Positions 5,205 through 21,923 of a stretch of DNA of 64,000 bases are shown one piece after another. Under the pieces are notes generated by a model. It was not told where the DNA came from and did no database searches. It worked only from the letters and a program-made list of their open reading frames with translations. Every line of letters begins with the position of its first letter. Within the stretch, counting starts at the first letter, position 1. Source of the DNA: Dongia sedimenti (GTDB lineage Bacteria; Pseudomonadota; Alphaproteobacteria; Dongiales; Dongiaceae); contig JAUYVI010000009.1 of the NCBI GenBank assembly GCA_030715195.1, positions 124,001-188,000 on the forward strand, written 5' to 3'. Both the position numbers and the translations under genes were made by a program.

Positions 5205-5927
5205 CTACTTGAGCGGGCTGGCGCGCAGCGAGGCGAGAATGCTCTCGGCGGCCTCGCCGATATCGGCCTCGATCGCGGAGCGTGCCTTGCCGCCGTCGCG
5301 CTTTGCCAGCGCCTTCAGCATCAAGGCGTGGTGGTTCAGGAAATCGGGCGCGCCGAAATCCGTATCCACGTGATGCAGGAAGGGGCCGATCTGCAGCCAA
5401 AGCGTTTCCACGATCGACATCGCCTGCGGCATGCGGGCGGCCATGTAGAGCTGGAAATGGAATTCCTGATTCAGCGCCAGGTACTTCTTGGTGCCGAGCC
5501 GGAGCTTGGCGATCATCTCGTCATTGAGCCGCGTCATGCGCTTCAACTCGTCCGGCGTGATGTGCTTCGCCGCGGTCTCCGCCATCATGCCTTCGAGCGC
5601 CAGGCGGATGCGCACGATCTCGTCGAACTTCTCGGCGGTCATCACCGGCAGTGTGACCGAGCGGTTGGGCAGGAGCTCCAGGGCGCGCTCCGCAACCAGA
5701 CGACGCAAGGCCTCGCGCACCGGCATCACGCTGGTGCCGAGCGCCTTCGCCAGCGCGCGGATGGTCATGGGCTCGCCGGGCGCGATCGTGCCGCCCATGA
5801 TCGCCTTCTTCACTTCGTCATAGGCCCGCTCATGCAGGGTCTCGCGCTCGAGCTTGGCCAAGCCGAAGGCCGGGCGTTCCTGGGTCGATGCTGTTGCTGC
5901 TGGTGCCATGCGTCCTGGGTCGGCCAT
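5205..5927 (-). CDS. GntR-family transcriptional regulator, FCD subfamily
   Basis: 240 residues. The N-terminal winged helix (about 33-95) contains TIRALAKALGTSVMPVREALRRL, the GntR recognition region, written here only to name the helix; the C-terminal all-helical FCD domain (about 105-225) has the spaced His/Asp residues (NQEFHF, NHHALML) that usually bind a metal and an acid ligand. It heads a catabolic island and is divergent from the amino-acid binding protein at 6231. A site resembling two further copies upstream of the BKACE and hyuB genes lies at 6062-6085, oriented toward this gene. It is therefore the best candidate for regulator of the whole island and for autoregulation. The ligand is unknown. 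Confidence 0.88.
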   Translation of the reverse strand: MADPGRMAPAATASTQERPAFGLAKLERETLHERAYDEVKKAIMGGTIAPGEPMTIRALAKALGTSVMPVREALRRLVAERALELLPNRSVTLPVMTAEKFDEIVRIRLALEGMMAETAAKHITPDELKRMTRLNDEMIAKLRLGTKKYLALNQEFHFQLYMAARMPQAMSIVETLWLQIGPFLHHVDTDFGAPDFLNHHALMLKALAKRDGGKARSAIEADIGEAAESILASLRASPLK

Positions 5928-6230
5928 TAAAACTCGTGAACTGATACCGCCCTGACTCGGCCGGAAGCCAGCGGAAAGCGCGTGTGGAGACTGAGGCCGC
6001 CGTCACCACACTGGCCGGAACCGCACCCCTCAGCTTGACAGTGGCCGGAGAGAGTCCTTAGCATTACATCAGCCGTGATCACAAGTCACAAGTCATGATG
6101 CCGATGGAACAGGCATCGGGATCGACGGCTGGGGCAGGGGGCAACGAATTGAAATGCCGCACGAAATCCCCCTCATTGAGGCAATGAAGCGGACCCGCCG
6201 CGTGGTCGGCGGGCAGACAGGGAGCTGACA
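5928..6230. promoter_or_regulatory. Divergent promoter region gntR / amino-acid binding protein
   Basis: This 303-base gap between divergent genes contains the GntR-type operator candidate at 6062-6085 and a purine-rich ribosome binding site (GGGAGC) just before 6231. No other gene or clear promoter box is visible. Confidence 0.5.
6062..6085 (-). promoter_or_regulatory. Candidate GntR operator/promoter upstream of gntR
   Basis: Read on the minus strand, the site starts CTTGTGATCAC and ends TGATGTAAT, toward the gntR start 135 bases away. The two end blocks match the sites at 9380-9408 and 13216-13244 (CTTGTGATCACA... and ...TGATG-n-TAAT), but the spacer between them is shorter. The TGATCA core is palindromic. 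It fits autoregulation. Confidence 0.5.
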
Positions 6231-7124
6231 ATGATGAAGATGATTTCGCGTCGCGTTTTGCTTGGAATGACGCTCGGCCTGACGGCCGTGGTGACGCTGG
6301 CTACCGGCATGGCGGGACTTGCTAAGGCCGACACGCTGGATGACATCAAGAAGACCGGCACCATCAAGGTCGGCGTCGGGGTGATGGGCCTGAAGCCCTG
6401 GGTCTGGCAGAACGAGGATGGCAGCTACGGCGGCATGGAGTTCGAGATGCTGCAGAAAATGCTGCCGCATCTCGGCGTTGCCAAGTTCGAGTATGTGCCG
6501 GTGGAATGGGACGCGCTCATCCCCGGCCTGAAGGCCAAACGGTTCGACATCATCTTCTCGGGCATGACCGTGACCGAGGAGCGGCGCCAAGGCTCCGGCA
6601 TCGAGTTCTCCCGGCCCTATTACTTTGAGAGCGATCGCATCGCGGTGCTGGAAGACTCGCCCTACCAGAAACCCGAGGACCTGAAAGGCAAGATCATCGG
6701 CACCACGGTGGGCACGGTCGAGGAGATGCAGGCCAACAAGATGGTCTCGCAAGGCTGGGGCGGCTCGGTGAAGGCATTCGACGACTTCGCGGCTCCCTTC
6801 ATGGCGCTGCAGAACAAGCAGGTCGATGCCGTGGTCGCGGATTTCACCAGCCTCGGCGAGCAGAAGAAGGTGACGCCGAATATCCGGGCGATCGGCGAGC
6901 CGATGTCGCTCGAGCCGAAGCCGGAATGGAAGGAGAAGCAGGCCGCGGCCGGCTACAAGTTCGGCGGCGCTGGAATCGGTGTGCGCAAGGAAGACGCGGC
7001 CCTGCTGGCCGCCGTCAACAAGGCGCTGGACGCCATGGACGAAGCCGGCGAGCGCCAGAAGATTCTCGAAGGCTACGGCCTCTGGGACGAATCGCTGTCC
7101 CGCGAAGCCATGATGGGCAAGTAG
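6231..7124 (+). CDS. Amino-acid ABC transporter substrate-binding protein (family 3)
   Basis: 297 residues, SBP_bac_3 fold. A signal peptide of about 33 residues (RRVLLGMTLGL core, cleavage near AKA-DT) precedes the first strand TIKVGVGVMGLKPW. The motif GMTVTEERRQGSGIEFSRPYYFES is typical of polar amino-acid binding proteins (named for recognition; positions about 112-135). A permease follows at 7214 after a strong hairpin, but no ATPase gene follows. It is probably controlled by the divergent GntR regulator. The ligand is likely an amino acid or related zwitterion, in line with the aminotransferase next door. Confidence 0.87.
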   Translation: MMKMISRRVLLGMTLGLTAVVTLATGMAGLAKADTLDDIKKTGTIKVGVGVMGLKPWVWQNEDGSYGGMEFEMLQKMLPHLGVAKFEYVPVEWDALIPGLKAKRFDIIFSGMTVTEERRQGSGIEFSRPYYFESDRIAVLEDSPYQKPEDLKGKIIGTTVGTVEEMQANKMVSQGWGGSVKAFDDFAAPFMALQNKQVDAVVADFTSLGEQKKVTPNIRAIGEPMSLEPKPEWKEKQAAAGYKFGGAGIGVRKEDAALLAAVNKALDAMDEAGERQKILEGYGLWDESLSREAMMGK

Positions 7125-7213: not shown

Positions 7214-7891
7214 ATGTGGGATTTCTTCACCGAGTTCGTGCCCAAATACCTGCCGCGCCTGCTGAAGGGCGTGCCGGTCACGCTGGAGCTCACGTTCTGC
7301 AGCATGCTGGTCAGCATTGCGATCGGCGTGGTCTGCGCGATCGCGACCCAGACCAAGAGCCGCTTTGCCAAGTGGTTTGTGTGCGTCTATGTCGAAATCT
7401 GCCGCGATGTTCCGCTGATCGTCATTCTGCTGTTCGTCTATTTCTCGCTGCCGCGCTACGGGGTCAGCCTGCCGGCGTTCTGGGCCGCCGTCCTAGGGCT
7501 TTCCGTGGTGATCGGCGCCTACTTGAGCGAAGTGTTTCGCGCGGCGATCGAGGCGATCGATCCTGGCCAGCATCAGGCGGGCATGGCGCTGGGCATGAGC
7601 CGCTTCGCGGTCTATTGGAAGATCATTCTGCCGCAGGCCATGTCGATCGCCATTCCGACCGTCGGCGGCTATTTCATCTCCGTCCTGAAGGACTGTGCGC
7701 TGGTCTCCTTCATCGGCGTCGAGGAACTGCTGCGCCAGGGCAAATACGTGATCGCCGAGACCTTCCGCAGCGAGGAAACCTATTTTCTGATCGGAATGAT
7801 CTACTTCATCCTGAGCTTCACCGCGGCGCGCACGGTGAGGCATGTGGAGAACTGGCTGCGGCCGGCCTATCTCAGGAAAAAGTCGGGATGA
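7214..7891 (+). CDS. Amino-acid ABC transporter permease (HisM/GlnP type)
   Basis: 225 residues, five or so membrane segments, BPD_transp_1 family. The N-terminal amphipathic region and first segment (LTFCSMLVSIAIGVV) are typical, and the EAA coupling loop EAIDPGQHQAGMALGMS followed by FxxILPQA is clear. Paired with the binding protein at 6231. Polar amino-acid importers need an ATPase; none lies beside this permease, and the nearest encoded one is at 48139 with its own partners. The aminotransferase gene downstream is convergent and begins one base after the stop. Confidence 0.88.
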   Translation: MWDFFTEFVPKYLPRLLKGVPVTLELTFCSMLVSIAIGVVCAIATQTKSRFAKWFVCVYVEICRDVPLIVILLFVYFSLPRYGVSLPAFWAAVLGLSVVIGAYLSEVFRAAIEAIDPGQHQAGMALGMSRFAVYWKIILPQAMSIAIPTVGGYFISVLKDCALVSFIGVEELLRQGKYVIAETFRSEETYFLIGMIYFILSFTAARTVRHVENWLRPAYLRKKSG

Positions 7892-9262
7892 TCAGCCCAT
7901 CACCTGCCGGATCAGCGTGCCGCGGCTGGTCAGGAACTCGTCCAGCGCCTCGATGAACAGGTCGACGTCGGCCTGGCTGGTGACCAGCGAGAGGTTGCCG
8001 AGGATCCGGCGCGTGACGTAGAGGCCGCGCGCGAACATATCGAGCTGGTAAAGCTTCTTCAGCGCGGCGACATCGTGTTCGCGCCCCTTCTCGCCCGCGT
8101 CGAGGTCGTGGCTGTTGCGGATCGGCCCGGTGTGGAAGTGCAGGCCGAAGATCGAGCCGGTGCCGGTCGCCTGCAGCGGCAGGCCGTGCTTGGCGGCTAG
8201 GGCGTTGGCGCGATCGCGCAGCGAATCGCCGAGCCCGTTCATGCGGTCGAGCGCCGCCGGGGTCAGCACCTTGGTGAAACCGGCCAGGCCGGCGGACATG
8301 GCGAGCACGTTGTTGTTGAAGGTGCCGCCATGGGGGAAGGAATCAGGACGGGTGGGGTCGAACCGGTCCATGATGTCGCCGCGGCCACCGAAGGCGCCGA
8401 TGGTCATGCCGCCGCCGACATACTTGCCGAGCGTGGTGAGGTCCGGCGTGATGCCGTGCTTGCCCTGCAGCCCGCCCGGCCCGAGCCGCGAGGTCATGAC
8501 CTCGTCGAACACCAGCAGCACGCCGTGCTTGGTGCAGGCGTCGCGCAGCGCCTTCAGGAATTCCGGGGTGCCGGGGATGGCGCCGGCGCCGCCCTGCATC
8601 GGCTCCAGGATCACCGCGGCCAGGGTCGCGGCGTTGGCTGCAATGTCGGCGACCGCCCGGTCGGTGTCGTTGTAGACGGATTCGATCACCGGGATCGGCA
8701 TGTTCAGCGGCGAGGGGCCGTGGCTGTAATAGAGCAGGCTGCCGTGATAGGCGCCGCCGAAGATCAGCGCGTTGGGCTTGCCGGATACCGCGCGGGCGGT
8801 GGCGAGCGCCAGCAGGTTCGCCTCGGTGCCGGAATTGCAGAAGCGCAGCCGCGCCATCGAGGGGAAACGGGCGATGATCGCCGCCGCGAGGTCGTGCTCG
8901 TAGATGTTCGGCGCGCCGAGCGTCAGGCCGTCATCGATCGCCTGTTTCAGTGCGGCCTGGATCACCGGCTCGGAATGGCCGAACACGCCTGCCGTGTGCT
9001 CGTTGATGAAATCGACGTAGCTGTGGCCGTCGACATCGGTAACCTTGGATCCCTTGGCCGATCGAACCGCGAGCGGGAAGGGACCGTAATGCAGGGTGGT
9101 CCGGGTGTTGCCGCCCGGCATCGTCGCCCGCGCGCCCTGGTTCAACTTCGCGCTGCCCGGATTGGCCGACACGTAACGCTGCTCGGCCTCGGCCACCGCC
9201 GACTCCAGATGCTGGTTGGTCTGGCGTCCGGTCTTTGCGGTGTCGGCGCGCACGCTGCTCAT
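7892..9262 (-). CDS. Class III PLP aminotransferase resembling beta-phenylalanine transaminase
   Basis: 456 residues. The PLP lysine is K280 (LTTLGKYVGGG), the pyridine-N aspartate is D253 (VFDEVMTSRLGP) and the phosphate-binding region includes NSGTEAN (about 143-149). The class covers glutamate-1-semialdehyde aminomutase and several transaminases. The motif MPGGNTR (R54), the stretch FGGRGDIM and GTFNNNV closely resemble, from memory, the Variovorax beta-phenylalanine aminotransferase, in which an Arg at the R54 position binds a carboxylate. I infer a beta-amino-acid transaminase making a beta-keto acid, which is what the neighbouring BKACE enzyme consumes. The start at 9262 has a good GGAGGGG ribosome binding site. 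It is divergent from the BKACE operon. Confidence 0.85.
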   Translation of the reverse strand: MSSVRADTAKTGRQTNQHLESAVAEAEQRYVSANPGSAKLNQGARATMPGGNTRTTLHYGPFPLAVRSAKGSKVTDVDGHSYVDFINEHTAGVFGHSEPVIQAALKQAIDDGLTLGAPNIYEHDLAAAIIARFPSMARLRFCNSGTEANLLALATARAVSGKPNALIFGGAYHGSLLYYSHGPSPLNMPIPVIESVYNDTDRAVADIAANAATLAAVILEPMQGGAGAIPGTPEFLKALRDACTKHGVLLVFDEVMTSRLGPGGLQGKHGITPDLTTLGKYVGGGMTIGAFGGRGDIMDRFDPTRPDSFPHGGTFNNNVLAMSAGLAGFTKVLTPAALDRMNGLGDSLRDRANALAAKHGLPLQATGTGSIFGLHFHTGPIRNSHDLDAGEKGREHDVAALKKLYQLDMFARGLYVTRRILGNLSLVTSQADVDLFIEALDEFLTSRGTLIRQVMG

Positions 9263-9379
9263 TATCCCCTCCGAAGGTCTCTTTCTTGTTCGACGGCCCG
9301 GCCGGATCATAACCGAACGGCGCCCCGCGTCTCGCCGAGATCGACGGCGCTGTAAAAGCCGCCGCCGCTCCGCTGATAT

Positions 9380-9408
9380 CTTGTGATCACAGATATTGTG
9401 ATGCTAAT
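9380..9408 (+). promoter_or_regulatory. Candidate GntR operator overlapping promoter of BKACE operon
   Basis: The site is CTTGTGATCACA followed by GATATTGTGATGCTAAT. It contains the perfect palindrome TGTGATCACA and a second inverted repeat, ATCACA-n5-TGTGAT. The end TGCTAATAT (9402-9410) resembles an extended -10 box. Another copy at 13216-13244 is identical at 27 of 29 positions. It lies 85 bases before the BKACE start and 118 bases from the divergent aminotransferase, so it could control both. Confidence 0.65.
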
Positions 9409-9492
9409 ATCGCCTCAACGACAGTGTCAAGAAGGCGCCCCGCGGGGTGGCGGAAGGCACGGCGAATATCCAACAGGGGAGTGCGTGGAATC

Positions 9493-10461
9493 ATGAGCAC
9501 GGCAGCTGCTGATCCGAAGCCCAAGAGCAAATCCGGTCGGAAAGTCATCATCACCTGCGCCGTCACCGGTTCGGTGCACACGCCGACCATGTCGCCGTAT
9601 TTGCCGATCACGCCGGACCAGATCGCCGCCGATTCCATCGCCGCCGCCGAGGCCGGGGCCGCGATCATCCACCTGCACGCGCGCAATCCCGAGGACGGAA
9701 GCCCGACCCCGGATCCGAAGGTGTTCATGCAGTTCCTGCCGCGCATCAAGCAGAACTGCGATGCCGTCATCAACATCACCACCGGCGGTTCGCTGGGCAT
9801 GAGCATGGAAGACCGCCTGGCCGCGCCGCTCCGTGCCAAGCCGGAGCTCTGCTCGCTCAACATGGGCTCGATGAATTTCGGGATCTTCCACGTGACCGAC
9901 AAGATCACCGATTGGAAGTTTCCCTGGGAGAAGGCCTATGTGGAGCGGACCAAGGAGAACGTGGTCAGCAACAGCTTCGCCCAGATCGAGCGCTTCGTGA
10001 AAGAACTGGGCGACGGGCACGGCACGCGCTTCGAATGCGAGTGCTACGACGTCGGGCATCTCTACACCCTGGCGCATTTCGTCGACCGCAAGCTGCTGAC
10101 TCCGCCGTTCTTCGTGCAGACCATCTTCGGCGTGCTGGGCGGGATCGGTCCGCACCCGGAGGACCTGATGCACATGCGCCGCACGGCGGACCGACTGTTC
10201 GGCAGCGATTACCAATGGTCGATCCTGGCCGCCGGCCGGCACCAGATCAATCTTGCCACGATCGGCGCCACCATGGGCGGCAACGTCCGGGTCGGCATGG
10301 AAGACAGCATCTATCTCGGGCCCGGCCAGCTCGCCAAGAGCAATGCCGAGCAGGTGACGAAGATCCGCGGCATCCTGGAGAACCTCTCGCTGCAGATCGC
10401 CACGCCCGCCGAGGCACGCGAGATGCTGAAGCTCAAAGGCGGCGACAAGGTCGGCTTCTGA
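9493..10461 (+). CDS. Beta-keto acid cleavage enzyme (BKACE, DUF849 family)
   Basis: 322 residues, TIM-barrel BKACE family: a beta-keto acid plus acetyl-CoA gives acetoacetate plus a new acyl-CoA. Zinc ligands H60 and H62 (IIHLHARNP) and E270 (NVRVGMED) are present, as are the NITTGGS loop (94-100) and EC-E-CYDVGH. The ATG at 9493 is chosen because family similarity starts at VIITCAVTGS; a frame from 9424 has no similarity. It is followed two bases later by a thioesterase gene, the same order as the dehydrocarnitine cleavage enzyme and betainyl-CoA thioesterase of carnitine degradation in Pseudomonas. Carnitine dehydrogenase is absent here, and a transaminase stands in its place, so a different beta-keto acid is likely. 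Confidence 0.9.
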   Translation: MSTAAADPKPKSKSGRKVIITCAVTGSVHTPTMSPYLPITPDQIAADSIAAAEAGAAIIHLHARNPEDGSPTPDPKVFMQFLPRIKQNCDAVINITTGGSLGMSMEDRLAAPLRAKPELCSLNMGSMNFGIFHVTDKITDWKFPWEKAYVERTKENVVSNSFAQIERFVKELGDGHGTRFECECYDVGHLYTLAHFVDRKLLTPPFFVQTIFGVLGGIGPHPEDLMHMRRTADRLFGSDYQWSILAAGRHQINLATIGATMGGNVRVGMEDSIYLGPGQLAKSNAEQVTKIRGILENLSLQIATPAEAREMLKLKGGDKVGF

Positions 10462-10463
10462 CC

Positions 10464-10883
10464 ATGGCGGGCGCGGTCGAGACCTATCGCGGCGTCGCTT
10501 ATCCCTGGAACTGCGATTCCATGGGACACATGAACACCCAGTTCTATGCCGCGCTTTACGACGGCGCCTCGTTCCATTTCCTCTCCATGCTGGCGCCCTA
10601 CAACGAGTTGAAGGTGCGGGGCCTCGGCTGGGCCGATGTGCGCCAGACCATCGAGTACAAGCACGAGGTGCGCGCGGGGGCGCTGCTGGTGGTGCGGACG
10701 GTGCTGCGGCGGCTCGGCAACAAGTCGGTTGAATACCGGCATGAAATCCACAATGCCGAGACCGACGACCTCCATTCGAGCAGCGACCAGGTCACGGTGC
10801 TGTTCGATCTCAACGCCCGCGCCGCGGCGCCGCTGACCGAGGAGATCCGCCGGCGCGGCGCCTCCCTCGGCATCGCGGCGTGA
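10464..10883 (+). CDS. Acyl-CoA thioesterase, 4HBT hot-dog fold
   Basis: 139 residues with the 4-hydroxybenzoyl-CoA thioesterase pattern: NCDSMGHMN with the likely catalytic D18, then the long helix and strands up to VTVLFDLNARA. The start lies two bases after the BKACE stop and the stop overlaps the next start (GTGA), so it is translationally coupled on both sides. In this context it probably hydrolyses the acyl-CoA released by BKACE, in the way proposed for CdhB in carnitine catabolism. The acyl group is unknown. Confidence 0.8.
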   Translation: MAGAVETYRGVAYPWNCDSMGHMNTQFYAALYDGASFHFLSMLAPYNELKVRGLGWADVRQTIEYKHEVRAGALLVVRTVLRRLGNKSVEYRHEIHNAETDDLHSSSDQVTVLFDLNARAAAPLTEEIRRRGASLGIAA

Positions 10884-12301
10884 CGCCGATGCAGACGCGG
10901 ATCGCCGGCCGCGGACCCTGGCTGCGCGAAGCCATTGCGCCGGGCGAGCAGGACGAGCCGGCGCTCGAGGGCGCGCAGCGCGCCGATATCTGCATCGTCG
11001 GCGGCGGCATGGCCGGCATGTGGACCGCGCTGGAACTGAAGCGGCGCCGGCCGGAGCTCGACATCGCCATCGTCGAGGCGGATATCCTCGGCGGCGGCGC
11101 CAGCGGGCGCAATTCCGGCATGGTGCTCTCGCAATGGGCCAAGTTCGCCGCCTTGCAGGCGTTCTGCGGGACCGAGGACGCGATCCGGCTGGGCCATGTC
11201 TTCGGCAATTCCGCGACCGAGATCGACGCCTTCTTCCGCGAGGCGGGCATCGACATCGAGTTCAGAAGGGACGGCTGGATCTGGGGCGCCACCTGTCGCC
11301 GCCACATCGGTTCCTGGAACGGCATCCTCGCTGCACTGGCACAGCATGGACTGGCGCCGTTCCGCGAAGTGACCGCGGCGGAGATCACCGCCATGACCGG
11401 CACGAAGTCCTTCCTGGCCGGGATCCATGATCCAAGCGCCGCGACCATTCATCCCGGCAAGCTGGCGCGCGGGCTCCGCCGCGTGGTGCTGAAGCGCGGC
11501 ATCCGGGTCTACGAGCATTCCGCTATGACCCGGCTGGAGCGCGGCCGTCCCGCCGTCGTGCACGCCGCCCGAGGCTCGATCACCGCCGCGCGTGTCGTGC
11601 TCACCATGAACGCCTGGTCGACCTCGATCCCGGAGCTGCGCTCGGCGATCCTGGTGATCGCCAGCGAGGACGCGGTCACCGAGCCCATTCCCGATCTCTT
11701 GGAGAAGCTCGGCTACAAGGAGAAGCCGCTGATGGGCGACTCCCAGCTCTTCGTCACCGGCTTTCGCACCACCCGCGATCATCGCTTCAACCCGGGAGTC
11801 ACCGGCGGCGTCATCGGCTTCGGCGGCCTCAACGGTGGGCGCTGGGAAGGCCGCTCGCCGCGCGAGGACGTGATCCGCGATTGCGTGCGCCGCGGCTATC
11901 CGGCGCTGGCCAACGTCCCCTTCGCCGACAGCTGGTTCGGGCCGATCGATCGCACCCGCAGCGGCCTGCCGCTGTTCGGTGCCTTGCCGGGCTCTTCGCA
12001 CATTTTTTACGGCTATGGCTTCTCGGGGAATGGCGTCGCGACCACGCCGATCGCCGGACGCATCCTCGCCTCGCTCGCGCTCGATCTGAAAGACGAATGG
12101 TCGGGTTGCGGCCTGGTGCGCCCCCCGGAGCGCTGGCTGCCGCCGGAGCCGATCCGCTACATCGGCGCGCATATGGTGCGGGCGGCGATCGCGCGGAAGG
12201 ACCGCCTCGATCACCTGGACCGGACGCCGGGACCGATCGTGCGCGCCCTGGCCGGGCTGGCGCCGGGGGGCATCACCACGTCACGCGTCACCAAGAGCTG
12301 A
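10880..12301 (+). CDS. FAD-dependent amine/amino-acid oxidoreductase (DAO family)
   Basis: 473 residues. The N-terminal FAD-binding motif is VGGGMAGMW (about 39-47), followed by an acidic strand end (IVEAD) and GGGASGRNSGMV, the typical DAO/GlpD second motif. The C-terminal GYGFSGNGVATTPIAGRIL helps bind FAD. No signal peptide, so it is cytoplasmic or membrane-associated. A GTG start overlaps the thioesterase stop; an ATG nine bases later is also possible. Relatives oxidise gamma-glutamylputrescine, sarcosine, dimethylglycine or D-amino acids. In this operon it may deaminate or demethylate the compound entering the transaminase/BKACE steps or the acid leaving them. Confidence 0.85.
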   Translation: MTPMQTRIAGRGPWLREAIAPGEQDEPALEGAQRADICIVGGGMAGMWTALELKRRRPELDIAIVEADILGGGASGRNSGMVLSQWAKFAALQAFCGTEDAIRLGHVFGNSATEIDAFFREAGIDIEFRRDGWIWGATCRRHIGSWNGILAALAQHGLAPFREVTAAEITAMTGTKSFLAGIHDPSAATIHPGKLARGLRRVVLKRGIRVYEHSAMTRLERGRPAVVHAARGSITAARVVLTMNAWSTSIPELRSAILVIASEDAVTEPIPDLLEKLGYKEKPLMGDSQLFVTGFRTTRDHRFNPGVTGGVIGFGGLNGGRWEGRSPREDVIRDCVRRGYPALANVPFADSWFGPIDRTRSGLPLFGALPGSSHIFYGYGFSGNGVATTPIAGRILASLALDLKDEWSGCGLVRPPERWLPPEPIRYIGAHMVRAAIARKDRLDHLDRTPGPIVRALAGLAPGGITTSRVTKS

Positions 12302-12326: not shown

Positions 12327-12692
12327 ATGCCGAACGCCATTCACTTCAAGCGCAACGAACTCCCGTTCATTCCATGCAAGGCGCCGGGCGGCGAGACCAA
12401 GATTGCCCGCGTGATCAACGCCAAGATCAGCCAGAACATGGGCGGCGGCCTCGAAATCGCCGAGAACATCAAGGTCCATTGGACCACGTTGTACGACGAA
12501 ATCCTCTTCATTCACGAAGGCAGCATGATCGTCCGCACCGACCAGGGCGAGATGGAATGCAATGCCGGGGACATCGTCTGGCTGCCCGAGGGCTGCACGC
12601 TGGATTACGACTTCACCGGGCGGCGCTGCGCCTACTTCTACGCGCTCTATCCCTTCGACTGGGCCAAGCGCCACGGCATGGAAGAGCCCTGA
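12327..12692 (+). CDS. Cupin-domain protein
   Basis: 121 residues forming one small beta-barrel cupin, with ILFIHEGSM and GDIVWLPEGCTLDY as the two cupin motifs, reminiscent of EutQ-like cupins. Not all canonical metal His residues are visible, so metal binding is uncertain. A strong ribosome binding site (AGGAGG) lies before the ATG at 12327. It sits inside the BKACE operon between the FAD oxidase and RraA-like genes, so it may be an isomerase, a lyase or a small-molecule sensor in the pathway. No specific function can be assigned. Confidence 0.75.
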   Translation: MPNAIHFKRNELPFIPCKAPGGETKIARVINAKISQNMGGGLEIAENIKVHWTTLYDEILFIHEGSMIVRTDQGEMECNAGDIVWLPEGCTLDYDFTGRRCAYFYALYPFDWAKRHGMEEP

Positions 12693-12733: not shown

Positions 12734-13213
12734 ATGGATTTCTCGACCGCTGATCTCTGGGACGCGCATCACGCGATGATCGGTGTTTGTGACGCGCAGT
12801 TCCGCAGCTTCGGCCTGCGCCGCCGTTTCTCCGGCGCCTGCGTTACGGTGAAGACTCCGGGCGACCATCGCCAGGTCAGGGCGCTGGCGGTGACACCGGG
12901 CGCGGGCCGGGTGATCGTGGTCGATGGCGGGTCGGCGATGCAGGTCGCGCTGCTCGGTGACCGGATCGCCACCGCGGCGATGGCGAACGGCTGGGCCGGG
13001 ATCGTCGCCTTCGGCGCGATCCGCGACACCGCAACGATCGACGCCATGAATTTCGGCGTCAAGGCCCTGGGCACGATCGCCCGCCGGGCGGAGAGCGAGG
13101 TTGGCGGCGAGACCGGGGTCGCGCTCGCCGTGGCCGGTCTCACCATCCGGCCCGGCGATTGGATCTACGCCGATGCGGATTCCGTGGTGGTCAGCCCGAA
13201 GCGGCTCGCCTGA
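12734..13213 (+). CDS. RraA-like protein, possibly 4-hydroxy-4-methyl-2-oxoglutarate aldolase type
   Basis: 159 residues, RraA/methyltransferase-like fold, near the usual length of about 160. The phosphate-like loop VVVDGGSAM and the pair GAIRD (about 96-100) are present; the Arg-Asp pair is kept in divalent-metal pyruvate aldolases, whereas the E. coli RNase E inhibitor RraA lacks the Asp. I therefore favour an aldolase or decarboxylase role in the pathway over RNase regulation, but this rests on one residue pair. It is the last gene of the BKACE operon before the second operator at 13216. Confidence 0.75.
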   Translation: MDFSTADLWDAHHAMIGVCDAQFRSFGLRRRFSGACVTVKTPGDHRQVRALAVTPGAGRVIVVDGGSAMQVALLGDRIATAAMANGWAGIVAFGAIRDTATIDAMNFGVKALGTIARRAESEVGGETGVALAVAGLTIRPGDWIYADADSVVVSPKRLA

Positions 13214-13215
13214 CT

Positions 13216-13244
13216 CTTGTGATCACAGATACTGTGATGGTAAT
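13216..13244 (+). promoter_or_regulatory. Candidate GntR operator overlapping promoter of hyuB-liv-hyuA operon
   Basis: The site is CTTGTGATCACA followed by GATACTGTGATGGTAAT, identical to the copy at 9380-9408 except at two positions. It lies three bases after the RraA-like stop and 42 bases before the hyuB start. TGGTAATGT resembles an extended -10 element. The conservation in a non-coding position before a new transcription unit is good evidence for a shared regulator. Confidence 0.65.
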
Positions 13245-13286: not shown

Positions 13287-15143
13287 ATGGCTGACGGCGG
13301 CCCCGGAAGGGCGAGCGCGCGCAAGGCGGCGGATTTCGATCCGGTGCTGCTGGCGGTGCTTTCGAACCGCTTCGAATCCATCATCCGCGAGATGACCAAC
13401 ACGGTCATGAAGGCCAGCCGGTCGAGCGTCATCAAGAACGCGCGCGACATGTCCTGCGGGTTGCTGACCTATGACCACCGCCTGGTCTCGGTCGAGGAGG
13501 CGCTGCCGATCCATGTGACCGGCCTGGAGCTCACCACCCAGCCGATCACCAAGCTGTTCACCGAGATCAAGGAAGGCGACGCCTATCTCAACAACAGCCC
13601 GTTCTACGGCGGCACGCATCATGCCGACCTGACGCTCTGCATCCCCGTCTTCTGCGATGGCGAGCCGATGTTCTGGACCCTGGCCCGCTCGCACCACGCG
13701 GATATCGGCGCGCCCGAGCCAACCACCTATCTGCCTTATGCCGGCGACATCTACATGGAAGGCGTGCACTTCCCCTGCGTGCGGGTGCATGAGAACTATC
13801 AGGAAAAGGCCGACATCGTCCGCATCGGCCTGCAGAAGATCCGCGTGCCGTCGATCTGGTACGGCGACTATCGCGCCCAGGTCGGCGCCTGCCGCACCGG
13901 CGAGCGGCGGCTCAAGGAGCTGGTCAAGCACTACGGCATCGATGTCATCAAGCACTTCATCGAGGCCTGGATGGATTACGGCGAGCGCCGCGCCATCGAT
14001 GCGATCAAGCAGCTGCCGGGCGGCACCTTCTCCTATGAAGTCCGCCACGACCCGGTGCCGGGCGTCGCCGACGAGGGCGTGCCGATCAAGGCCAAGGTCA
14101 CGATCGACAATCGGAAGGGCCTGATCACCGTTGATGTGCGCGACAATCCGGATTGCGTACCAGGCGGCCTCAACGTGACCGAGGCCTGCGTCATCGCCTC
14201 CTGCCGCACGGGTGTCTACTACAACATCGATTCCACGATCCCGCACAATCACGGCAGCGCCAGCCGGATCGTGCCGCTGCTGCGCGACAATTGCGTGGTG
14301 GGCAGGCCGCAGCATCCGATCGGCACCTCCTGCGCCACCAGCAACGTCAACGAGCGCCTGGCCAATGCGGTGCAGTGCTGCTTCGCCCAACTCGGCAAGC
14401 CCTATGGGATGGCGGAGGGCGGGGGCAACGCCTCGGCCGCGCTCGGCGTCGTCTCCGGCACCGACAAACGGCGCAAGGAGGCGGTGCCCTATGTCACCCA
14501 GGTCATGCTCGGCCTGTCCGGCGGTCCCGGCAGCCACGGCCATGACGGCTGGTTGACCTATGAGTGCTCGGTCGGCAACGGCATCATGGTCAACGACTCA
14601 ATCGAGATCGACGAGGCGACCTATCCGATCCTGATCGAAGAGCGCAGCGTCGCCCGGGACAGCATGGGCTTTGGCGAATGGAACGGCGCGCCGGCGGTCA
14701 AGGGCTCCTATCGCTCGCTCACCGGTGAGATGACGGTCTATTTCTTCGGCGACGGCGGAACCTTTCCGCCCAAAGGCGTGCTCGGCGGCCTGCCGGGCAG
14801 CGGCTGCGGCACCTGGAAACGTCTGAAGAACGGCAAGCTGGAGCGTCAGCCGGATTTCGACCATTGCTCGGCCGGCGAGAAGGAAGCGGTGCACTACCGG
14901 AGCTGCGCCGGCGGCGGTTACGGATCGCCGCGCGACCGCGATCCGGAACGCGTGCTCGCCGATCTCAACCGCGGCTGGCTCAGTCCCGAAAAGGCCCGCA
15001 GCGTGTTCGGCGTGGCGGCCAGGCGCGGTGCCAATGGCGTCGATTACGAGCTCGATATGGCGGGGACGGCAAAGCTGCGCGCCGCGAAGCCTAAAACAAC
15101 ATCACGAAAAGCAAAAAGCAGCAGCAACAGGAGGCGGAAATGA
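13287..15143 (+). CDS. Hydantoinase B / 5-oxoprolinase beta-subunit family protein
   Basis: 618 residues, HyuB family, near the usual length for the separate B subunit. The N-terminal pattern of an R-F-ESI stretch, then SSVIKNARDMSCGLL and the motif EALPIHVTGLELT are typical, as is the glycine-rich stretch GGGNASAALG and a late GGGYGSP. HyuA and HyuB together hydrolyse cyclic amides such as hydantoins, 5-oxoproline or lactams, usually with ATP, or act as acetone/acetophenone carboxylase-like enzymes. The partner HyuA is encoded at 19768, separated by a complete ABC importer. The gene starts an operon directly behind the second GntR-type operator and overlaps the binding-protein gene by four bases. 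Confidence 0.9.
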   Translation: MADGGPGRASARKAADFDPVLLAVLSNRFESIIREMTNTVMKASRSSVIKNARDMSCGLLTYDHRLVSVEEALPIHVTGLELTTQPITKLFTEIKEGDAYLNNSPFYGGTHHADLTLCIPVFCDGEPMFWTLARSHHADIGAPEPTTYLPYAGDIYMEGVHFPCVRVHENYQEKADIVRIGLQKIRVPSIWYGDYRAQVGACRTGERRLKELVKHYGIDVIKHFIEAWMDYGERRAIDAIKQLPGGTFSYEVRHDPVPGVADEGVPIKAKVTIDNRKGLITVDVRDNPDCVPGGLNVTEACVIASCRTGVYYNIDSTIPHNHGSASRIVPLLRDNCVVGRPQHPIGTSCATSNVNERLANAVQCCFAQLGKPYGMAEGGGNASAALGVVSGTDKRRKEAVPYVTQVMLGLSGGPGSHGHDGWLTYECSVGNGIMVNDSIEIDEATYPILIEERSVARDSMGFGEWNGAPAVKGSYRSLTGEMTVYFFGDGGTFPPKGVLGGLPGSGCGTWKRLKNGKLERQPDFDHCSAGEKEAVHYRSCAGGGYGSPRDRDPERVLADLNRGWLSPEKARSVFGVAARRGANGVDYELDMAGTAKLRAAKPKTTSRKAKSSSNRRRK

Positions 15144-16327
15144 AGCAAGGCATGTGGTTCAAGCGCATGGGCAGCCTGGCGGTTCTCGCCGCCGCGCTGG
15201 CTTTCGGCTCGGCGGCGCAAGCCGAAGATCCGATCGTGATCGGCGCGGCGATCGCCCAGAGCGGCGGCGTGGCGCCTTATGACGAAGGTCCGGCTGGCGG
15301 CATGGAGATTGCGATCGACGAGATCAACGCGAAGGGCGGGTTGCTCGGCCATCCGCTGAAGATCGTCTATGCCGACACCAAGTCCGACATCGCCTATGGC
15401 GCGACTGCGGCGCAGCAGGTGATCGACGAGGGCGCCAAGATGGTGGTGGTGACCTGCGATTACGACTACGGCAGCGCGGCGGCCTCGGTCGCCGACGGCG
15501 CCAACCTGATCGCCTTCTCGACCTGTGCCGGCGATCCCAAGTTCGGCCCGAGCGGCATCGGCCCCAATGCCTTCACCATGGCGACGGGCGCACCCGGCCA
15601 GGCCGTGGCGATGGCGGAGTGGGCGTATAACGTGAAGGGCTGGCGCAAGGGCTACATCCTGAAGGACACCACCATCGCCTTCGACGCGACCTGGGCGGAT
15701 TTCTTCAAGCGGCGCTGGGCCGAACTCGCCGGCGCCGATGCCTTGCTCGGCATGGACACGTTCGGCGGCGAGGACCCGCAGATCGCCAGCCAGATCACCC
15801 GCATCAAGGCGCTCAGCGACAAGCCCGACTTCATCGTGCTTGCCTCCTTCCCGCCGGGCGGCGTCAGCGCCATGCGGCAGATCCGCGCCGCCGGCGTCGA
15901 GACGCCGCTGCTCGGCTCGGAATCCTGGGACGGCGACTATTGGCTGGAGGGCGTGCCGAACCTGAGCGACATGTATTTCGTGACCTATGGCTCGATGTTC
16001 GGCGCCGATCCGCGGCCCGAGGTCCAGGCCTTCATGGAGAAGTACAAGGCCAAGTTCGGCAAGCCGCCGGTCACCTCGCACTCGGTCACCGGCTACAGCG
16101 TGATCGAGGCTTGGAGCAAGGCGGTGGAGAAGGCGGGCACCTTCGACACCGACAAGGTGCGCGACGTGCTGCAGAGTTTCAAGGACGAGAAGCTGCTGGC
16201 GGGTCCCACGACCTTTACCGAGAAGGAGCACATCAACATGCAGCGCGATCTGCTGTTGATCGAGGTGGTGGGCGGCAAGTCCGGCAACATCATCCAGGTG
16301 GTCAAGGCCGCGCAGATGCCGAAATAG
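15140..16327 (+). CDS. Branched-chain-type ABC transporter substrate-binding protein
   Basis: 395 residues, LivK-like periplasmic binding protein (Peripla_BP_6). A signal peptide ends AQA-ED near residue 29, and the mature part starts with IVIGAAIAQSGGVAPYDEG. The start overlaps the hyuB stop (ATGA), with an AACAGGAGGCGG ribosome binding site. Being embedded between hyuB and hyuA, it most likely carries the ring compound or amide that HyuAB opens, or a related carboxylate. Downstream are all four other components of a Liv-type importer. Confidence 0.9.
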   Translation: MKQGMWFKRMGSLAVLAAALAFGSAAQAEDPIVIGAAIAQSGGVAPYDEGPAGGMEIAIDEINAKGGLLGHPLKIVYADTKSDIAYGATAAQQVIDEGAKMVVVTCDYDYGSAAASVADGANLIAFSTCAGDPKFGPSGIGPNAFTMATGAPGQAVAMAEWAYNVKGWRKGYILKDTTIAFDATWADFFKRRWAELAGADALLGMDTFGGEDPQIASQITRIKALSDKPDFIVLASFPPGGVSAMRQIRAAGVETPLLGSESWDGDYWLEGVPNLSDMYFVTYGSMFGADPRPEVQAFMEKYKAKFGKPPVTSHSVTGYSVIEAWSKAVEKAGTFDTDKVRDVLQSFKDEKLLAGPTTFTEKEHINMQRDLLLIEVVGGKSGNIIQVVKAAQMPK

Positions 16328-16360: not shown

Positions 16361-17110
16361 ATGACCGGCGAAGCAGGGGTTGCGACGGCGTCGGCGCTGG
16401 AAGTCGCCGGCGTCGTCGTCAACTTTCAGGGCCTGCGGGCCATCGACGACATTCACCTGACCCTGCGGCCGGGCGAGATCCTCGGCTTGATCGGGCCGAA
16501 CGGCGCCGGGAAGACCACGCTGATCAACGTGCTGACCGGCTTCCAGGTGCCCGACCACGGCAGCGTCGCCTTGAACGGCGTCGATCTGCTGCCGCTGAAG
16601 CCGCATCAGCGCAGCCGGTTGGGATTGGTGCGCACCTTCCAGAACGTGCTGCCCTTCGCCGGGCTGACCGCGTTGGAGAATGTTGAAGCCGGCGCGATGG
16701 CGACAGGCATGGCCCGTGGCGCGGGCCGCGCCTGGGCGATGGAGGTGCTCGGCCGCCTCGGCCTCGCCGACAAGGCCGCGCGCCGGGTCGATACCCTGCC
16801 GTTCGGCGAGGAGCGCCGGGTCGGCATCGCCCGCGCCGTCGCCATGAAGCCCAAGTTCCTGCTGATGGACGAGCCTGCCGCCGGATTGAACGATGCCGAG
16901 GCGGAAGAGCTTCAGCGCGTCGTCGCCGGCATCGTCGCGGAAGGCGAATGCGGCGTGCTGCTGATCGAGCACCGGATGCCGCTGGTGTTCCGGCTCTGTC
17001 ACCGCATCCAGGTGCTGCAGCACGGCGCGACCATCGCCCTCGGCACCCCGGAGGAGATTCGCGCGCACAATGCGGTGCGCGCCGCTTATCTCGGCGACGA
17101 GGCGGTCTAG
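16361..17110 (+). CDS. livG: Branched-chain-type ABC transporter ATP-binding protein (LivG)
   Basis: 249 residues. Walker A GPNGAGKTT (45-53), Q-loop LVRTFQNV and Walker B FLLMDEPAAGL are intact. The signature is LPFGEERR, a variation of LSGGQ that is tolerated in LivG relatives (often LSYGEQR). It would pair with the LivF-type ATPase encoded two bases downstream to form the heterodimeric motor. Confidence 0.9.
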   Translation: MTGEAGVATASALEVAGVVVNFQGLRAIDDIHLTLRPGEILGLIGPNGAGKTTLINVLTGFQVPDHGSVALNGVDLLPLKPHQRSRLGLVRTFQNVLPFAGLTALENVEAGAMATGMARGAGRAWAMEVLGRLGLADKAARRVDTLPFGEERRVGIARAVAMKPKFLLMDEPAAGLNDAEAEELQRVVAGIVAEGECGVLLIEHRMPLVFRLCHRIQVLQHGATIALGTPEEIRAHNAVRAAYLGDEAV

Positions 17111-17112
17111 CC

Positions 17113-17847
17113 ATGCTGGCCATTGAAAAGCTGCAGGTCAACTATGGCAGCATCACCGCCTTGCGCGGCGTCGATATCACGGTCGCCAAGGGTGAGATCG
17201 TGGCGGTGATCGGCCCGAACGGCGCCGGCAAGTCCACCTTACTGCTGACCATCGCCGGCGTGGTGAAGGCCAAGGCGGGCAGCGTGAAATTCGACAGCCG
17301 TCCGATCCTCGGGCTGGCGCCGGAGAAGCTCGCGGCCTCGGGTCTCGCTTTGGTGCCGGAAGGGCGTCACATCTTCGGCAGCCTCAGCGTCGCCGAGAAT
17401 ATCGCGCTCGGCGCCACGCCGCGCAGCGATCGCGACGGCATTGCCGCCGACACCGACAAGGTGCTCGGCATGTTCCCGGTGCTGCGCGACCGCTACCGCC
17501 AGCGCGCCGGCAATCTCTCCGGCGGCGAGCAGCAGATGCTGGCGATCGGCCGTGCCTTGCTGTCGCGGCCGAAGCTCTTGCTGCTGGACGAGCCGTCGCT
17601 CGGCCTGGCACCCCTGATCGTCAAGCAGGTCTATGACGCGATCTATGCGCTGCGCGAGCAGGGCCTGACCGTTCTCGTGGTGGAGCAGAGCGTCAACCGT
17701 GCGCTCAACGCCGCCGACCGTGCCTACGTGATGAGCGGCGGCGCCATCGCCATGGTCGGGCGATCGAGCGAGCTCCAGGGCACGGCGGAGTTCGACGCCG
17801 CCTATTTCGGCGCCGGGCAACGCGACCCGGGGCGGAGCCCGGCATGA
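17113..17847 (+). CDS. livF: Branched-chain-type ABC transporter ATP-binding protein (LivF)
   Basis: 244 residues. Walker A GPNGAGKST, Q-loop LVPEGRHIF, signature LSGGEQQ and Walker B LLLLDEPSLGLAP are all canonical for LivF. The ATG at 17113 is two bases after the livG stop, and the end overlaps the livH start by four bases (ATGA). Partner of LivG in the importer of this operon. Confidence 0.92.
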   Translation: MLAIEKLQVNYGSITALRGVDITVAKGEIVAVIGPNGAGKSTLLLTIAGVVKAKAGSVKFDSRPILGLAPEKLAASGLALVPEGRHIFGSLSVAENIALGATPRSDRDGIAADTDKVLGMFPVLRDRYRQRAGNLSGGEQQMLAIGRALLSRPKLLLLDEPSLGLAPLIVKQVYDAIYALREQGLTVLVVEQSVNRALNAADRAYVMSGGAIAMVGRSSELQGTAEFDAAYFGAGQRDPGRSPA

Positions 17848-18722
17848 TCGTCGTCCAGAACCTGATCGACGCGATCAGCCTCGGCTCGGTCTACGCCTTG
17901 GCGGCCCTCGGCATCGGCCTCATCTTCAGCATCATGCGCCTCATCAACTTCGCCCATGGCGAGCTGATCATGGTCGGCGGCTTCGTGATTTATGCGCTGG
18001 CCGGCAATCCGATGCTCGTGATGGCGCTGAGCGCCATCATCGTCGTCACCATCCTCGCCCTCGGCATGGAGCGGCTGGCCTTCCGGCCCTTGCGCAAGGC
18101 GAGCCCGCCGACCCTGTTGATCGCCTCCTTTGCGGTTTCCTACTTCGTGCAGCATGTGATCCTGATGATCTTCGGCTCGCGGCCGATGGGAGTCGATTTC
18201 CTCTCGGTGCTCGGCGAGAGCTTCGAATTCGCCGGACTTCGGGTGCCGCGCCTGCAATGCATCGCCATCGTCGTCACGCTGGCATTGATGGTCGGGCTCG
18301 TGGTGTTTTTCCGCGCGTCCCGGATCGGCGTCCAGATGCGGGCTGCCGCCGAGGACTTCACCATGGCGCGCCTGCTCGGCGTCAAGGCCGACCGGGTGAT
18401 CGCCGTCGCCTTCGCGCTCTCCGGCATCCTGGCCAGCTTCGTCTCGCTCTACCTGGTCGCACAGACCGGCACCGTCTCCTACAAGATGGGCGTCAACATG
18501 GTGCTGATCGCCTTCGTCGCCTCGGTGATCGGCGGGATGGGCTCGCTGACCGGCGCCGCGCTCGGCGGCTTTATCGTCGGCATTGTCTCGGTTTCGCTCC
18601 AGGCCTACCTGCCGGAGGAGCTGCGGCCCTACCGCGACGCCTTTGTGTTTCTTCTGTTCATCGCCTTCCTGCTGTGGCGGCCGCAAGGCTTGCTGGTGCG
18701 GCGGGCAAGCGAGCGGGTGTAA
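17844..18722 (+). CDS. livH: Branched-chain-type ABC transporter permease (LivH)
   Basis: 292 residues, about eight membrane segments. The N-terminal region DAISLGSVYALAALGIGL and the phrase INFAHGELIM are hallmarks of LivH. The coupling region ADRVIAVAFALSGILA and C-terminal RPQGL are also typical. It overlaps livF by four bases and is followed three bases later by livM. Confidence 0.92.
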   Translation: MIVVQNLIDAISLGSVYALAALGIGLIFSIMRLINFAHGELIMVGGFVIYALAGNPMLVMALSAIIVVTILALGMERLAFRPLRKASPPTLLIASFAVSYFVQHVILMIFGSRPMGVDFLSVLGESFEFAGLRVPRLQCIAIVVTLALMVGLVVFFRASRIGVQMRAAAEDFTMARLLGVKADRVIAVAFALSGILASFVSLYLVAQTGTVSYKMGVNMVLIAFVASVIGGMGSLTGAALGGFIVGIVSVSLQAYLPEELRPYRDAFVFLLFIAFLLWRPQGLLVRRASERV

Positions 18723-18725
18723 GCC

Positions 18726-19751
18726 ATGGCCGAGCCTTCGACTCCCGTCGCCCACAATCCCCTGCACACCGCTTTGCTGCTGGCGCTGATCCTGCTGGTC
18801 GTCGCGGCAATAGCCGGTTTCTTCCCGCCGGCGCTGCAGCGCACCGTGACCCAGGCGATGATCATGCTGGTGGTGGTCACCGGCCTCTACACCTTCTGCG
18901 GCAATTCCGGCGTCTTCTCCTTCGGCCACATCGCCTTCATGGCGATCGGCGGCTATACCTCGGCGATCCTCACGATCCTGCCGGGCAAGAAGGAGGTCGC
19001 GCTCGATCTTCCGGTCTGGCTGGAGCAGATTCAGCTCCCGGTCAGCGTCGCCGGGCCGGTGGCGGTGCTGTTCGCCGGCCTGGTGGCGCTGCTGGTCGGG
19101 CTGGTGTTCATGCGCCTGCGCGGCATCGCGCTGCCGATGGCGACCTTTGCCATGCTGGTCATTGTCTATGTCGTCGCCCTCAATTGGCAGGCGGTGACCG
19201 GCGGGCGGCAGGCGCTGGTCGGCCTGCCGCGGACCACCGGCCTCTGGACCGGCTTCGGCTTTGCAGCCCTCGGACTGTTCGTCGCAGCGCTCTACGACCG
19301 GACCCGGCACGGCCTCGCCTTGCGCTGCTCGCGGGAGAGCGAGGTCGCGGCCGCCGCGACCGGCATCGATCTGGAGCGCGAGCGGCTGATCGCCTTCGTG
19401 GTCAGCGCCATGATCGTCGCCGCGGGCGGTGTGCTGTTCGCGCATTTCCTCGGCACCATGACCGCCAACACCTTCTATCTCGACCTCACCTTCGTCACCC
19501 TGACCATGCTGGTGGTCGGCGGCATGCGCAGCCTGACCGGGGCCTGCGCCGGCGTCGCCCTGGTCTCCGTCGTTTCCGAAGTCTTCCGCAGCATCGAGCG
19601 TGGCTTCTCCCTCGGCGGGACGACGATCGCCGCGCCGCCAGGCCTGCAGGAGATCGTGCTGGCGCTCATTCTGCTCGTCATTCTGCTGCTGCGGCCGCAT
19701 GGCCTGGCCGGGGACTGGGAACTGACCCTCCCCGGGCGCAGCCAACGTTAG
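18726..19751 (+). CDS. livM: Branched-chain-type ABC transporter permease (LivM)
   Basis: 341 residues, membrane protein with about nine hydrophobic segments. The motif GVFSFGHIAFMAIGGY is the LivM signature, and the coupling region GLALRCSRESEVAAAATGID contains the usual small-residue helix. Forms the heterodimeric pore with LivH. HyuA follows after 16 bases with its own ribosome binding site. Confidence 0.92.
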   Translation: MAEPSTPVAHNPLHTALLLALILLVVAAIAGFFPPALQRTVTQAMIMLVVVTGLYTFCGNSGVFSFGHIAFMAIGGYTSAILTILPGKKEVALDLPVWLEQIQLPVSVAGPVAVLFAGLVALLVGLVFMRLRGIALPMATFAMLVIVYVVALNWQAVTGGRQALVGLPRTTGLWTGFGFAALGLFVAALYDRTRHGLALRCSRESEVAAAATGIDLERERLIAFVVSAMIVAAGGVLFAHFLGTMTANTFYLDLTFVTLTMLVVGGMRSLTGACAGVALVSVVSEVFRSIERGFSLGGTTIAAPPGLQEIVLALILLVILLLRPHGLAGDWELTLPGRSQR

Positions 19752-21825: not shown

Positions 21826-21923
21826 CCCGGCGAAGCCGCGGTCGCAGGCCACCGGATTGGGCGGATCGCTTATGCGCACCCCATTCTGTATAGTCGGGTG
21901 ATAACGCGTCAGAGGGGGTGGCG

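Follow-up and report, generated by a model that had tools for sequence, protein, structure and literature searches.

Several described pathways resemble in part a locus of Dongia sedimenti in which a class III aminotransferase (hereafter transaminase), a beta-keto acid cleavage enzyme (BKACE) and a hot-dog thioesterase are encoded together, and which we analysed in a 64,000-nucleotide stretch of its genome (the window; positions 124001-188000 of a 222-kb contig, in a genome of 6.13 Mb and 26 contigs). Carnitine degradation, with the gene order cdhCAB, likewise combines a BKACE (CdhC) with a hot-dog thioesterase (CdhB), but it employs a carnitine dehydrogenase where the window has a transaminase, and the window BKACE belongs to another family. 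Barker's route of beta-lysine degradation in Pseudomonas comprises a transaminase (EC 2.6.1.65), an acetyl-CoA-dependent cleavage to acetoacetate and a thioesterase, which is the reaction order proposed here for the window. Unlike the window unit, among whose scanned proteins no gene for such steps was found, it includes acetylation and deacetylation, for which genes are present in a Shinella plasmid locus (L243). We know of no genes for Barker's route, and a search of openly accessible papers for them turned up nothing.

Lysine fermentation is described as removing the amino group at C3 to give a beta-keto acid, which a BKACE-family enzyme, Kce, cleaves with acetyl-CoA to acetoacetate; however, its deamination is by an NAD(P)-dependent dehydrogenase, and the transaminase of that pathway, Kat, has a CoA ester as substrate and comes into play after Kce (PMC3149608). 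The window BKACE, moreover, scores under the cut-off of the Kce model (NF052387; 237.5 versus 382). Oxidised hydroxy acids are reported to feed BKACE in carnitine catabolism (PMC12482172), and deoxyribonate catabolism also has an oxidation to a beta-keto acid followed by a BKACE, although there the beta-keto acid is formed from a hydroxy acid by an SDR dehydrogenase (PMC6365646). The same two-enzyme logic as in the window, a beta-alanine transaminase with a BKACE, is found in the engineered CORE-cycle module of E. coli (PMC11961710), which is synthetic, leads from beta-alanine to formyl-CoA and uses a transaminase from another source. What becomes of the keto acid in the hosts of beta-phenylalanine transaminases is called uncertain (PMC6150868), and BKACE15, though well studied, is described as having an unknown physiological role (PMC11961710).

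Our analyses make it likely that the genes of the Dongia locus act together, under local control, in the breakdown of a beta-amino acid, or of a cyclic or amide precursor of one, which would be converted to a beta-keto acid and cleaved by the BKACE to yield acetoacetate and an acid. Reading of the open reading frames (ORFs) together with Pfam and NCBIfam profiles identified the transaminase, BKACE and thioesterase as real, contiguous genes at 7892-10883, exactly where a sequence-only reading of this DNA had placed them. The transaminase (456 residues; PF00202 at 1.5e-52) is on the minus strand and starts at an internal ATG (7892-9262), its longest ORF extending to 9310, whereas the BKACE and thioesterase are on the plus strand, 230 bases separating the transaminase start from the BKACE start. 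The BKACE has 322 residues (PF05853 at 3.8e-106; 354.8 bits, cut-off 24.8), and the thioesterase, of 139 residues (PF13279 at 1.8e-16), has its ATG 2 bases past the BKACE stop and gives a weak match (E 1.6e-7) to the carnitine 3-dehydrogenase model, in its thioesterase portion.

The best solved relatives of the transaminase are the beta-phenylalanine transaminases of Variovorax (VpAT; 4AO9, 8.9e-117) and Mesorhizobium (6IZ9 and 2YKU, 1.3e-115 and 1.6e-115); the next class III structure, 6k8h, follows at 6.9e-80 and glutamate-1-semialdehyde (GSA) aminomutases from 4.9e-64 down. In the alignment, R41, E75, K267 and R398 of VpAT are all kept, K267 being the catalytic lysine. It is reported for VpAT that R41 and E75 bind the carboxylate and that V43 and Y76 contact the aromatic ring (PMC9850050). 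Neither ring contact is kept in the window transaminase (V43 is Thr and Y76 is His) and beta-phenylalanine is thus a less likely substrate, but in the seven-member clade of this enzyme position 43 is Thr throughout while position 76 is Tyr in four members, His in two and Phe in one. Because position 76 varies in this way, an aromatic side chain is only moderately disfavoured, and beta-phenylalanine, with Tyr76 kept in four of the seven, is weakened as a candidate but not rejected. These results support an enzyme of the beta-transaminase kind, with predicted activity on beta-amino acids; the likeness to the Variovorax transaminase claimed in the sequence-only reading therefore holds for the enzyme and its core residues, while a Variovorax-like substrate is unsupported.

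The BKACE keeps an HxH motif and E258, which we take to be its zinc site, as well as E171, Tyr173 and R254 (PdKce numbering). The roles of the last three are those given in PMC11961710 and PMC12871164, in which E171 is described as needed for activity in BKACE15 (PMC11961710) and Tyr173 as present in all BKACE sequences, with Phe in the divergent enzyme BsfD (PMC12871164). The protein passes the NF053538 (3,5-dioxohexanoate-type) model with 529.7 bits against a cut-off of 430. A published table of BKACE groups separates those acting on hydrophobic or uncharged polar substrates from those acting on positively charged ones (PMC4922564); in our reading, NF053538 would correspond to group G1, of the former kind, with 3E49 and 3E02 as the closest structures.

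The pairing of a transaminase of this kind with a BKACE recurs in other genomes. BKACE matches were present in 16 and transaminase matches in 16 of the 17 genomes of the order sample (D. sedimenti included), and as the two lie at most 2 kb apart in 11 of the 17, their adjacency is more than chance. The class sample comprised 385 genomes, 52 of which hold 56 transaminase places at E <= 1e-125, a threshold that missed the transaminases (44%) beside the BKACEs of genomes G192 and G287, which were found from the BKACE side; two of the 56 places (G005:C13 and G007:C22) were judged by contig, not by surroundings. A BKACE tree was built for 53 loci, picked partly around transaminases and partly around BKACEs (L076 and L078 duplicate L147 and L156, respectively; L076 was left out of the trees and both L076 and L078 out of the transaminase table). 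On this tree, the transaminase-linked label needs 6 changes versus 17.9 in shuffles, none of 500 shuffles being as low, and one clade of 19 BKACEs (support 97/96) contains 17 linked and two unlinked members. In a transaminase tree built by a quick method, the partners of the 17 linked BKACEs split into three supported clades that lie apart from one another. Seven partners are of the window type, seven of the L057-L066 type, whose clade also takes in an unlinked copy from a plasmid, and three of the L221-L223 type. Because partners of a single BKACE clade fall in three clades, the transaminase was exchanged at least twice with the pairing retained, a pattern that hitch-hiking does not readily explain.

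A possible marker of linkage is Cys170, between two active-site glutamates of the BKACE (FECECY): eight of nine BKACEs with this Cys are transaminase-linked versus none of 17 without it, in a comparison that covered 26 of the 102 listed class-sample BKACE places, that includes related and hence non-independent sequences, and in which several of the 17 contigs are 3.6 to 9.6 kb long with neighbours possibly missed. The L066 and L143-type BKACEs have Phe at this position yet are transaminase-linked, and Cys170 may serve as a marker only, not as a diagnostic residue.

Further evidence of a tie between the two genes is a 26-bp motif, TTGTGATCAC-N6-TGTGATGCTA, situated between the transaminase and the BKACE. 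A scan of the whole 6.13-Mb genome allowing up to 3 mismatches found the motif three times, with 0, 1 and 1 mismatches; every one of these matches belongs to this locus, the three lying within 7.2 kb, and a reversed control pattern gave none. The three sites mark three promoter regions: before the GntR and amino-acid ABC genes, in the gap between transaminase and BKACE, and before the HyuB-ABC-HyuA genes. When the seven loci carrying this type of GntR relative are aligned, no variation is seen in the first ten bases, and six of the seven keep the second half; GntR relatives (43-60%) are present in the six other loci that bear the motif. Fifteen further genomes were scanned, and the motif was found in five of the six with this locus type, with one copy each before the BKACE (0 mismatches), and in none of the nine without it, controls again giving none. 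G013 has one additional site elsewhere with 3 mismatches, and in G398, to which L075 belongs, the copy has diverged further and was missed by the scan. Six loci with another GntR type instead bear TTTGATCAAA in the interval between transaminase and importer. TGTGATCACA alone is weak evidence, having four matches in the window versus 1.07 expected, with as many in 3 of 100 shuffles. Together, the shared operator-like motif, the recurrence and the swapped partners functionally tie the transaminase to the BKACE, a coupling that we regard as well supported at the level of sequence comparison.

The sequence-only reading had ended the unit at the three genes, but the shared motif ties in genes from 5205 to at least 21825. 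The features, by window position and strand, are:

5205..5927, minus: GntR-family (FCD) regulator, likely the regulator of the unit (PF07729, PF00392)
6059..6084, minus: operator-like site 1, between GntR and amino-acid ABC genes (1 mismatch among the 20 fixed bases in the whole-genome scan)
6231..7124, plus: substrate-binding protein, family 3, amino-acid type (PF00497; solved relatives bind amino acids)
7214..7891, plus: ABC permease (PF00528)
7892..9262, minus: class III aminotransferase of the beta-transaminase type (profile, structure relatives, residues, tree)
9381..9406, plus: operator-like site 2, in the promoter region between the divergent transaminase and BKACE genes (0 mismatches)
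9493..10461, plus: BKACE (profiles, residues, tree)
10464..10883, plus: 4HBT hot-dog thioesterase (PF13279)
10886..12301, plus: FAD-dependent amine oxidase-like protein, DAO family (PF01266; TIGR03329 429.9 bits, under the cut-off of 632.8)
12327..12692, plus: EutQ-type cupin (PF06249)
12734..13213, plus: RraA-like/aldolase-family protein (PF03737)
13217..13242, plus: operator-like site 3, before HyuB (1 mismatch)
13287..15143, plus: hydantoinase/oxoprolinase B, HyuB (PF02538)
15140..16327, plus: substrate-binding protein, branched-chain amino-acid type (PF13458)
16361..17110, plus: ABC ATPase 1 (PF00005)
16948..17847, plus: ABC ATPase 2, start uncertain, overlapping the ABC ATPase 1 ORF (PF00005)
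17844..18722, plus: ABC permease (PF02653)
18726..19751, plus: ABC permease (PF02653)
19768..21825, plus: hydantoinase/oxoprolinase A, HyuA (PF01968)
21918..22778, plus: PhyH-family dioxygenase, tentative last gene of the operon (PF05721; membership by position only)

These genes would form one local regulon comprising the GntR regulator, the family-3 ABC importer, the transaminase, the BKACE-thioesterase-DAO-EutQ-RraA genes, HyuB-ABC-HyuA and perhaps the PhyH gene, and the GntR protein is predicted to bind the operator-like motif. The PhyH-family gene, which may belong to the unit, starts 92 bases after HyuA, and its product bears a weak resemblance to chlorinating enzymes (98.2 bits against a cut-off of 226.3).

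In the proposed route, the transaminase would transfer the beta-amino group of the substrate to a keto acid, leaving a beta-keto acid; the BKACE would condense the latter with acetyl-CoA to give acetoacetate and an acyl-CoA two carbons shorter, from which the thioesterase would release the acid. The acetoacetate would be activated by an acetoacetyl-CoA synthetase; the genome encodes one outside this locus (959.7 bits, cut-off 520.9), so that acetoacetate can be used by the host. An N-alkylated amine, belonging either to the substrate or to the acid set free, is probably what the DAO enzyme oxidises together with the EutQ cupin, and HyuA and HyuB probably open a lactam- or hydantoin-like precursor. 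The direction and products are what knowledge of the enzymes would predict; we infer the substrate class and the roles of the DAO, EutQ, RraA and HyuAB proteins. Acetoacetate as product is further supported by independent pairs, formed with other BKACE lineages, that adjoin acetoacetate-using genes. Rhizobium CB3060 groups an M81 peptidase, a Kce-like BKACE, a thioesterase, the transaminase, CoA-transferase A/B and an acetyl-CoA acetyltransferase (thiolase), and Microvirga VF16 has BKACE, transaminase and CoA-transferase genes together. Four rhizobial plasmids (Sinorhizobium, Rhizobium and Phyllobacterium) carry a transaminase, an FCD regulator and a BKACE with an amidase and an arginine-deiminase-family protein, that of Phyllobacterium also bearing an acetoacetate-CoA ligase. 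Shinella has a class III aminotransferase of a different kind, sharing 26% identity with that of the window, next to a GNAT protein, a thioesterase, a deacetylase-family protein and a BKACE that is 65% identical to the window BKACE.

Accessory genes, counted within 12 kb of the BKACE in the 19-locus clade, give some indication of the substrate. A DMGDH-like protein is encoded in six loci, neither it nor a DAO in four, and both in none; the G192 and G287 loci also hold an MttB-family protein. The DAO, DMGDH and MttB families act on N-methylated or otherwise alkylated amines, and these partners therefore suggest an N-alkylated amine in the substrate or the freed acid; a polar substrate that bears, as its second amine, an N-alkylated one would fit. 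A cyclic precursor is suggested by HyuA, whose best solved relatives are a 5-oxoprolinase (6yra) and an N-methylhydantoinase, and in G009 the BKACE has a 79% relative of HyuA close by (L055). Pairs of DAO and cupin genes also occur in other plasmid settings, one beside HyuA/HyuB in Paracoccus, and point to no substrate. An MttB-family gene stands beside transaminase and BKACE in L221 (11863-13410) and L222 (5380-6921; PF06253, 735.6 and 741.5 bits), and L223 has a 94% relative at 8310-9758, likewise beside such a pair.

Several observations weigh against the proposed route as a fixed whole. A BKACE lies within 5 kb at just six of the 56 class-sample transaminase places (G000, G002, G004, G007, G086 and G137; one further place has a BKACE at 5.2 kb), so that most such transaminases work without a linked BKACE, and four of the six fall in one genus. 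Two members of the BKACE clade, G005 and G015, show no transaminase nearby. The thioesterase occurs in seven of the 19 clade loci, and the DAO in nine, with the EutQ cupin in the same nine. Transporters vary among the loci (family 3, PotD-like and peptide type) and the substrate may consequently vary too, and NCBIfam naming would make the BKACE a 3,5-dioxohexanoate enzyme. Of the transaminase-BKACE-thioesterase route put forward in the sequence-only reading, the tie of transaminase to BKACE and a usable acetoacetate stand; the thioesterase is an inconstant part of it, and the unit is far larger.

The low proportion of linked transaminases is also in keeping with a different explanation, in which the transaminase acts at another amine position or in nitrogen supply, the beta-keto acid of the BKACE is made otherwise, and only the substrate or regulator is common. 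The presence of a second amine-oxidising enzyme in the unit agrees with this; it is nevertheless unlikely, as transaminase lineages have been exchanged beside one BKACE clade, the annotated genes of the unit include no beta-hydroxy-acid dehydrogenase, and the R41 and E75 residues of beta-transaminases are kept. Beta-lysine or an N-acylated form of it is another candidate, on which transaminase, acetyl-CoA-dependent cleavage and thioesterase would yield a 4-aminobutyrate derivative as in Barker's Pseudomonas route. The Shinella set of aminotransferase, BKACE, GNAT, deacetylase-family protein (PF00850, 2.9e-76) and thioesterase fits such a route, as do rhizobial relatives of the transaminase, whose neighbours include GNAT, ArgE-type deacylase, thiolase and CoA-transferase genes and in some cases a nearby lysine-2,3-aminomutase-like gene, and the assignment of the window BKACE to the neutral-substrate family NF053538. 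For the window unit itself this substrate is improbable, given that its annotated genes include no GNAT or deacetylase and that the Shinella aminotransferase is from another subfamily; the genome of D. sedimenti has no KamA-family match, which also led us to reject the making of beta-lysine in the same cell.

If the substrate were beta-alanine or an amide of it, the malonate semialdehyde made by the transaminase would be cleaved by the BKACE to formyl-CoA and acetoacetate, and the thioesterase would give formate, a natural form of the CORE-cycle module. This would leave the DAO, DMGDH-like and MttB-like partners unexplained, and the semialdehyde dehydrogenase routes already known are simpler. 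It is accordingly quite unlikely, notwithstanding that amidohydrolase genes recur near such transaminases, that more than 20 BKACE homologues are reported to act on malonate semialdehyde, and that a beta-alanine transaminase with a BKACE is reported to support growth of an E. coli formate auxotroph (PMC11961710). An aminocarnitine-like substrate, converted by the transaminase to dehydrocarnitine and by the BKACE to betainyl-CoA, with subsequent stepwise demethylation of glycine betaine, would account for the MttB-family and DMGDH-like genes that adjoin the transaminase-BKACE pairs of G192 and G287, for DMGDH-like and DAO proteins never occurring together (6 and 9 of 19 loci), and for a thioesterase resembling the one fused to carnitine dehydrogenase. 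It is very unlikely since the BKACE falls in the hydrophobic/uncharged polar group and not the positively charged one (NF053538; PMC4922564; the equation with G1 being our reading). Carnitine itself was rejected as substrate, no carnitine dehydrogenase being found among the unit proteins scanned with Pfam or NCBIfam (the search covered these proteins and not the remainder of the genome). That the transaminase might instead be a GSA aminomutase, a possibility raised in the sequence-only reading, and lie here by accident was also considered. It belongs to the same superfamily and hemL-type models match it weakly, but it scores 246.7 bits against the cut-off of 527.3 (TIGR00713), VpAT is far ahead of aminomutases as a match, no hemL over the cut-off is present in the genome (20 matches, best 365.1 bits) and a 5-aminolevulinate synthase is (627 bits), leaving this identity with a negligible probability and ruled out as far as sequence allows.

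No description of a natural transaminase-to-BKACE gene set was found in the openly accessible literature, outside of which lies the 2014 paper that defined BKACE (Bastard et al.), whose gene-context analysis may have noted aminotransferases. The reaction type has a precedent in Barker's route. Lysine fermentation, as described, provides another (PMC3149608), so that where the sequence-only reading had thought the route possibly undescribed, the apparently undescribed part seems to be this gene set and not the reaction type.

Related clusters elsewhere contain other combinations of these genes. On rhizobial plasmids, including pSymA, a VpAT-like transaminase occurs with a GNAT gene (L139 4494-18116; L144 8998-19281; L146 4526-10326; L214; L215), accompanied by a thiolase and an ArgE-type deacylase in L139, L146 and L214, a CoA-transferase in L139 and L146, ATP-grasp-like genes in L139, L214 and L215, and a lysine-2,3-aminomutase-like gene within about 10 kb in L139, L144 and L215 (TIGR03822, 552.7 versus 396.25 in L139). 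By gene content, these look like clusters that make and break a beta-amino acid on symbiotic plasmids. The Shinella WSC3-e plasmid cluster (L243 1029-9426), with ABC importer, aminotransferase, BKACE, GNAT, deacetylase-family protein, LysR and thioesterase genes, is a candidate gene set for the beta-lysine route. In L143, L145, L218 and L220, the transaminase-FCD regulator-BKACE genes are divergent from those for an amidase, an arginine-deiminase-family protein and ABC proteins, which suggests a guanidino or ureido beta-amino acid. Rhizobium CB3060 (L137 4434-12622) has its transaminase where R. gallicum and S. meliloti USDA1021 (L241 and L242) carry a 3-hydroxyacyl-CoA/carnitine-dehydrogenase-like gene, below model cut-offs, with similar thioesterase and CoA-transferase genes adjoining in both types. 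M81 peptidases recur beside these transaminases (L137 4434-5927; L144 12108-13601; L136; L214), that of L137 being related to microcystinase MlrC (201.9 bits, cut-off 999); their role may be to release beta-amino acids from amides or peptides.

We tentatively propose, with less confidence than for the Dongia unit, a general modular route of beta-amino acid breakdown in Proteobacteria, in which interchangeable amidohydrolases and importers would liberate and import the compound, and interchangeable transaminases and BKACE lineages would form the beta-keto acid and cleave it to acetoacetate. The window unit would be its form for an N-alkylated, possibly cyclic precursor, and the Shinella L243 and rhizobial L139-type clusters would hold the missing genes of the long-orphan beta-lysine route. 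The conserved pairing joins two open ends, the fate of the keto acids made by beta-transaminases and the physiological role of BKACE15; it also supplies candidate genes for beta-lysine catabolism and a counterpart, found in nature, of the engineered CORE-cycle module. Biocatalysis makes use of beta-transaminases and, if the proposed route is true, the Dongia unit would show what can happen downstream of a biocatalytic transaminase family.

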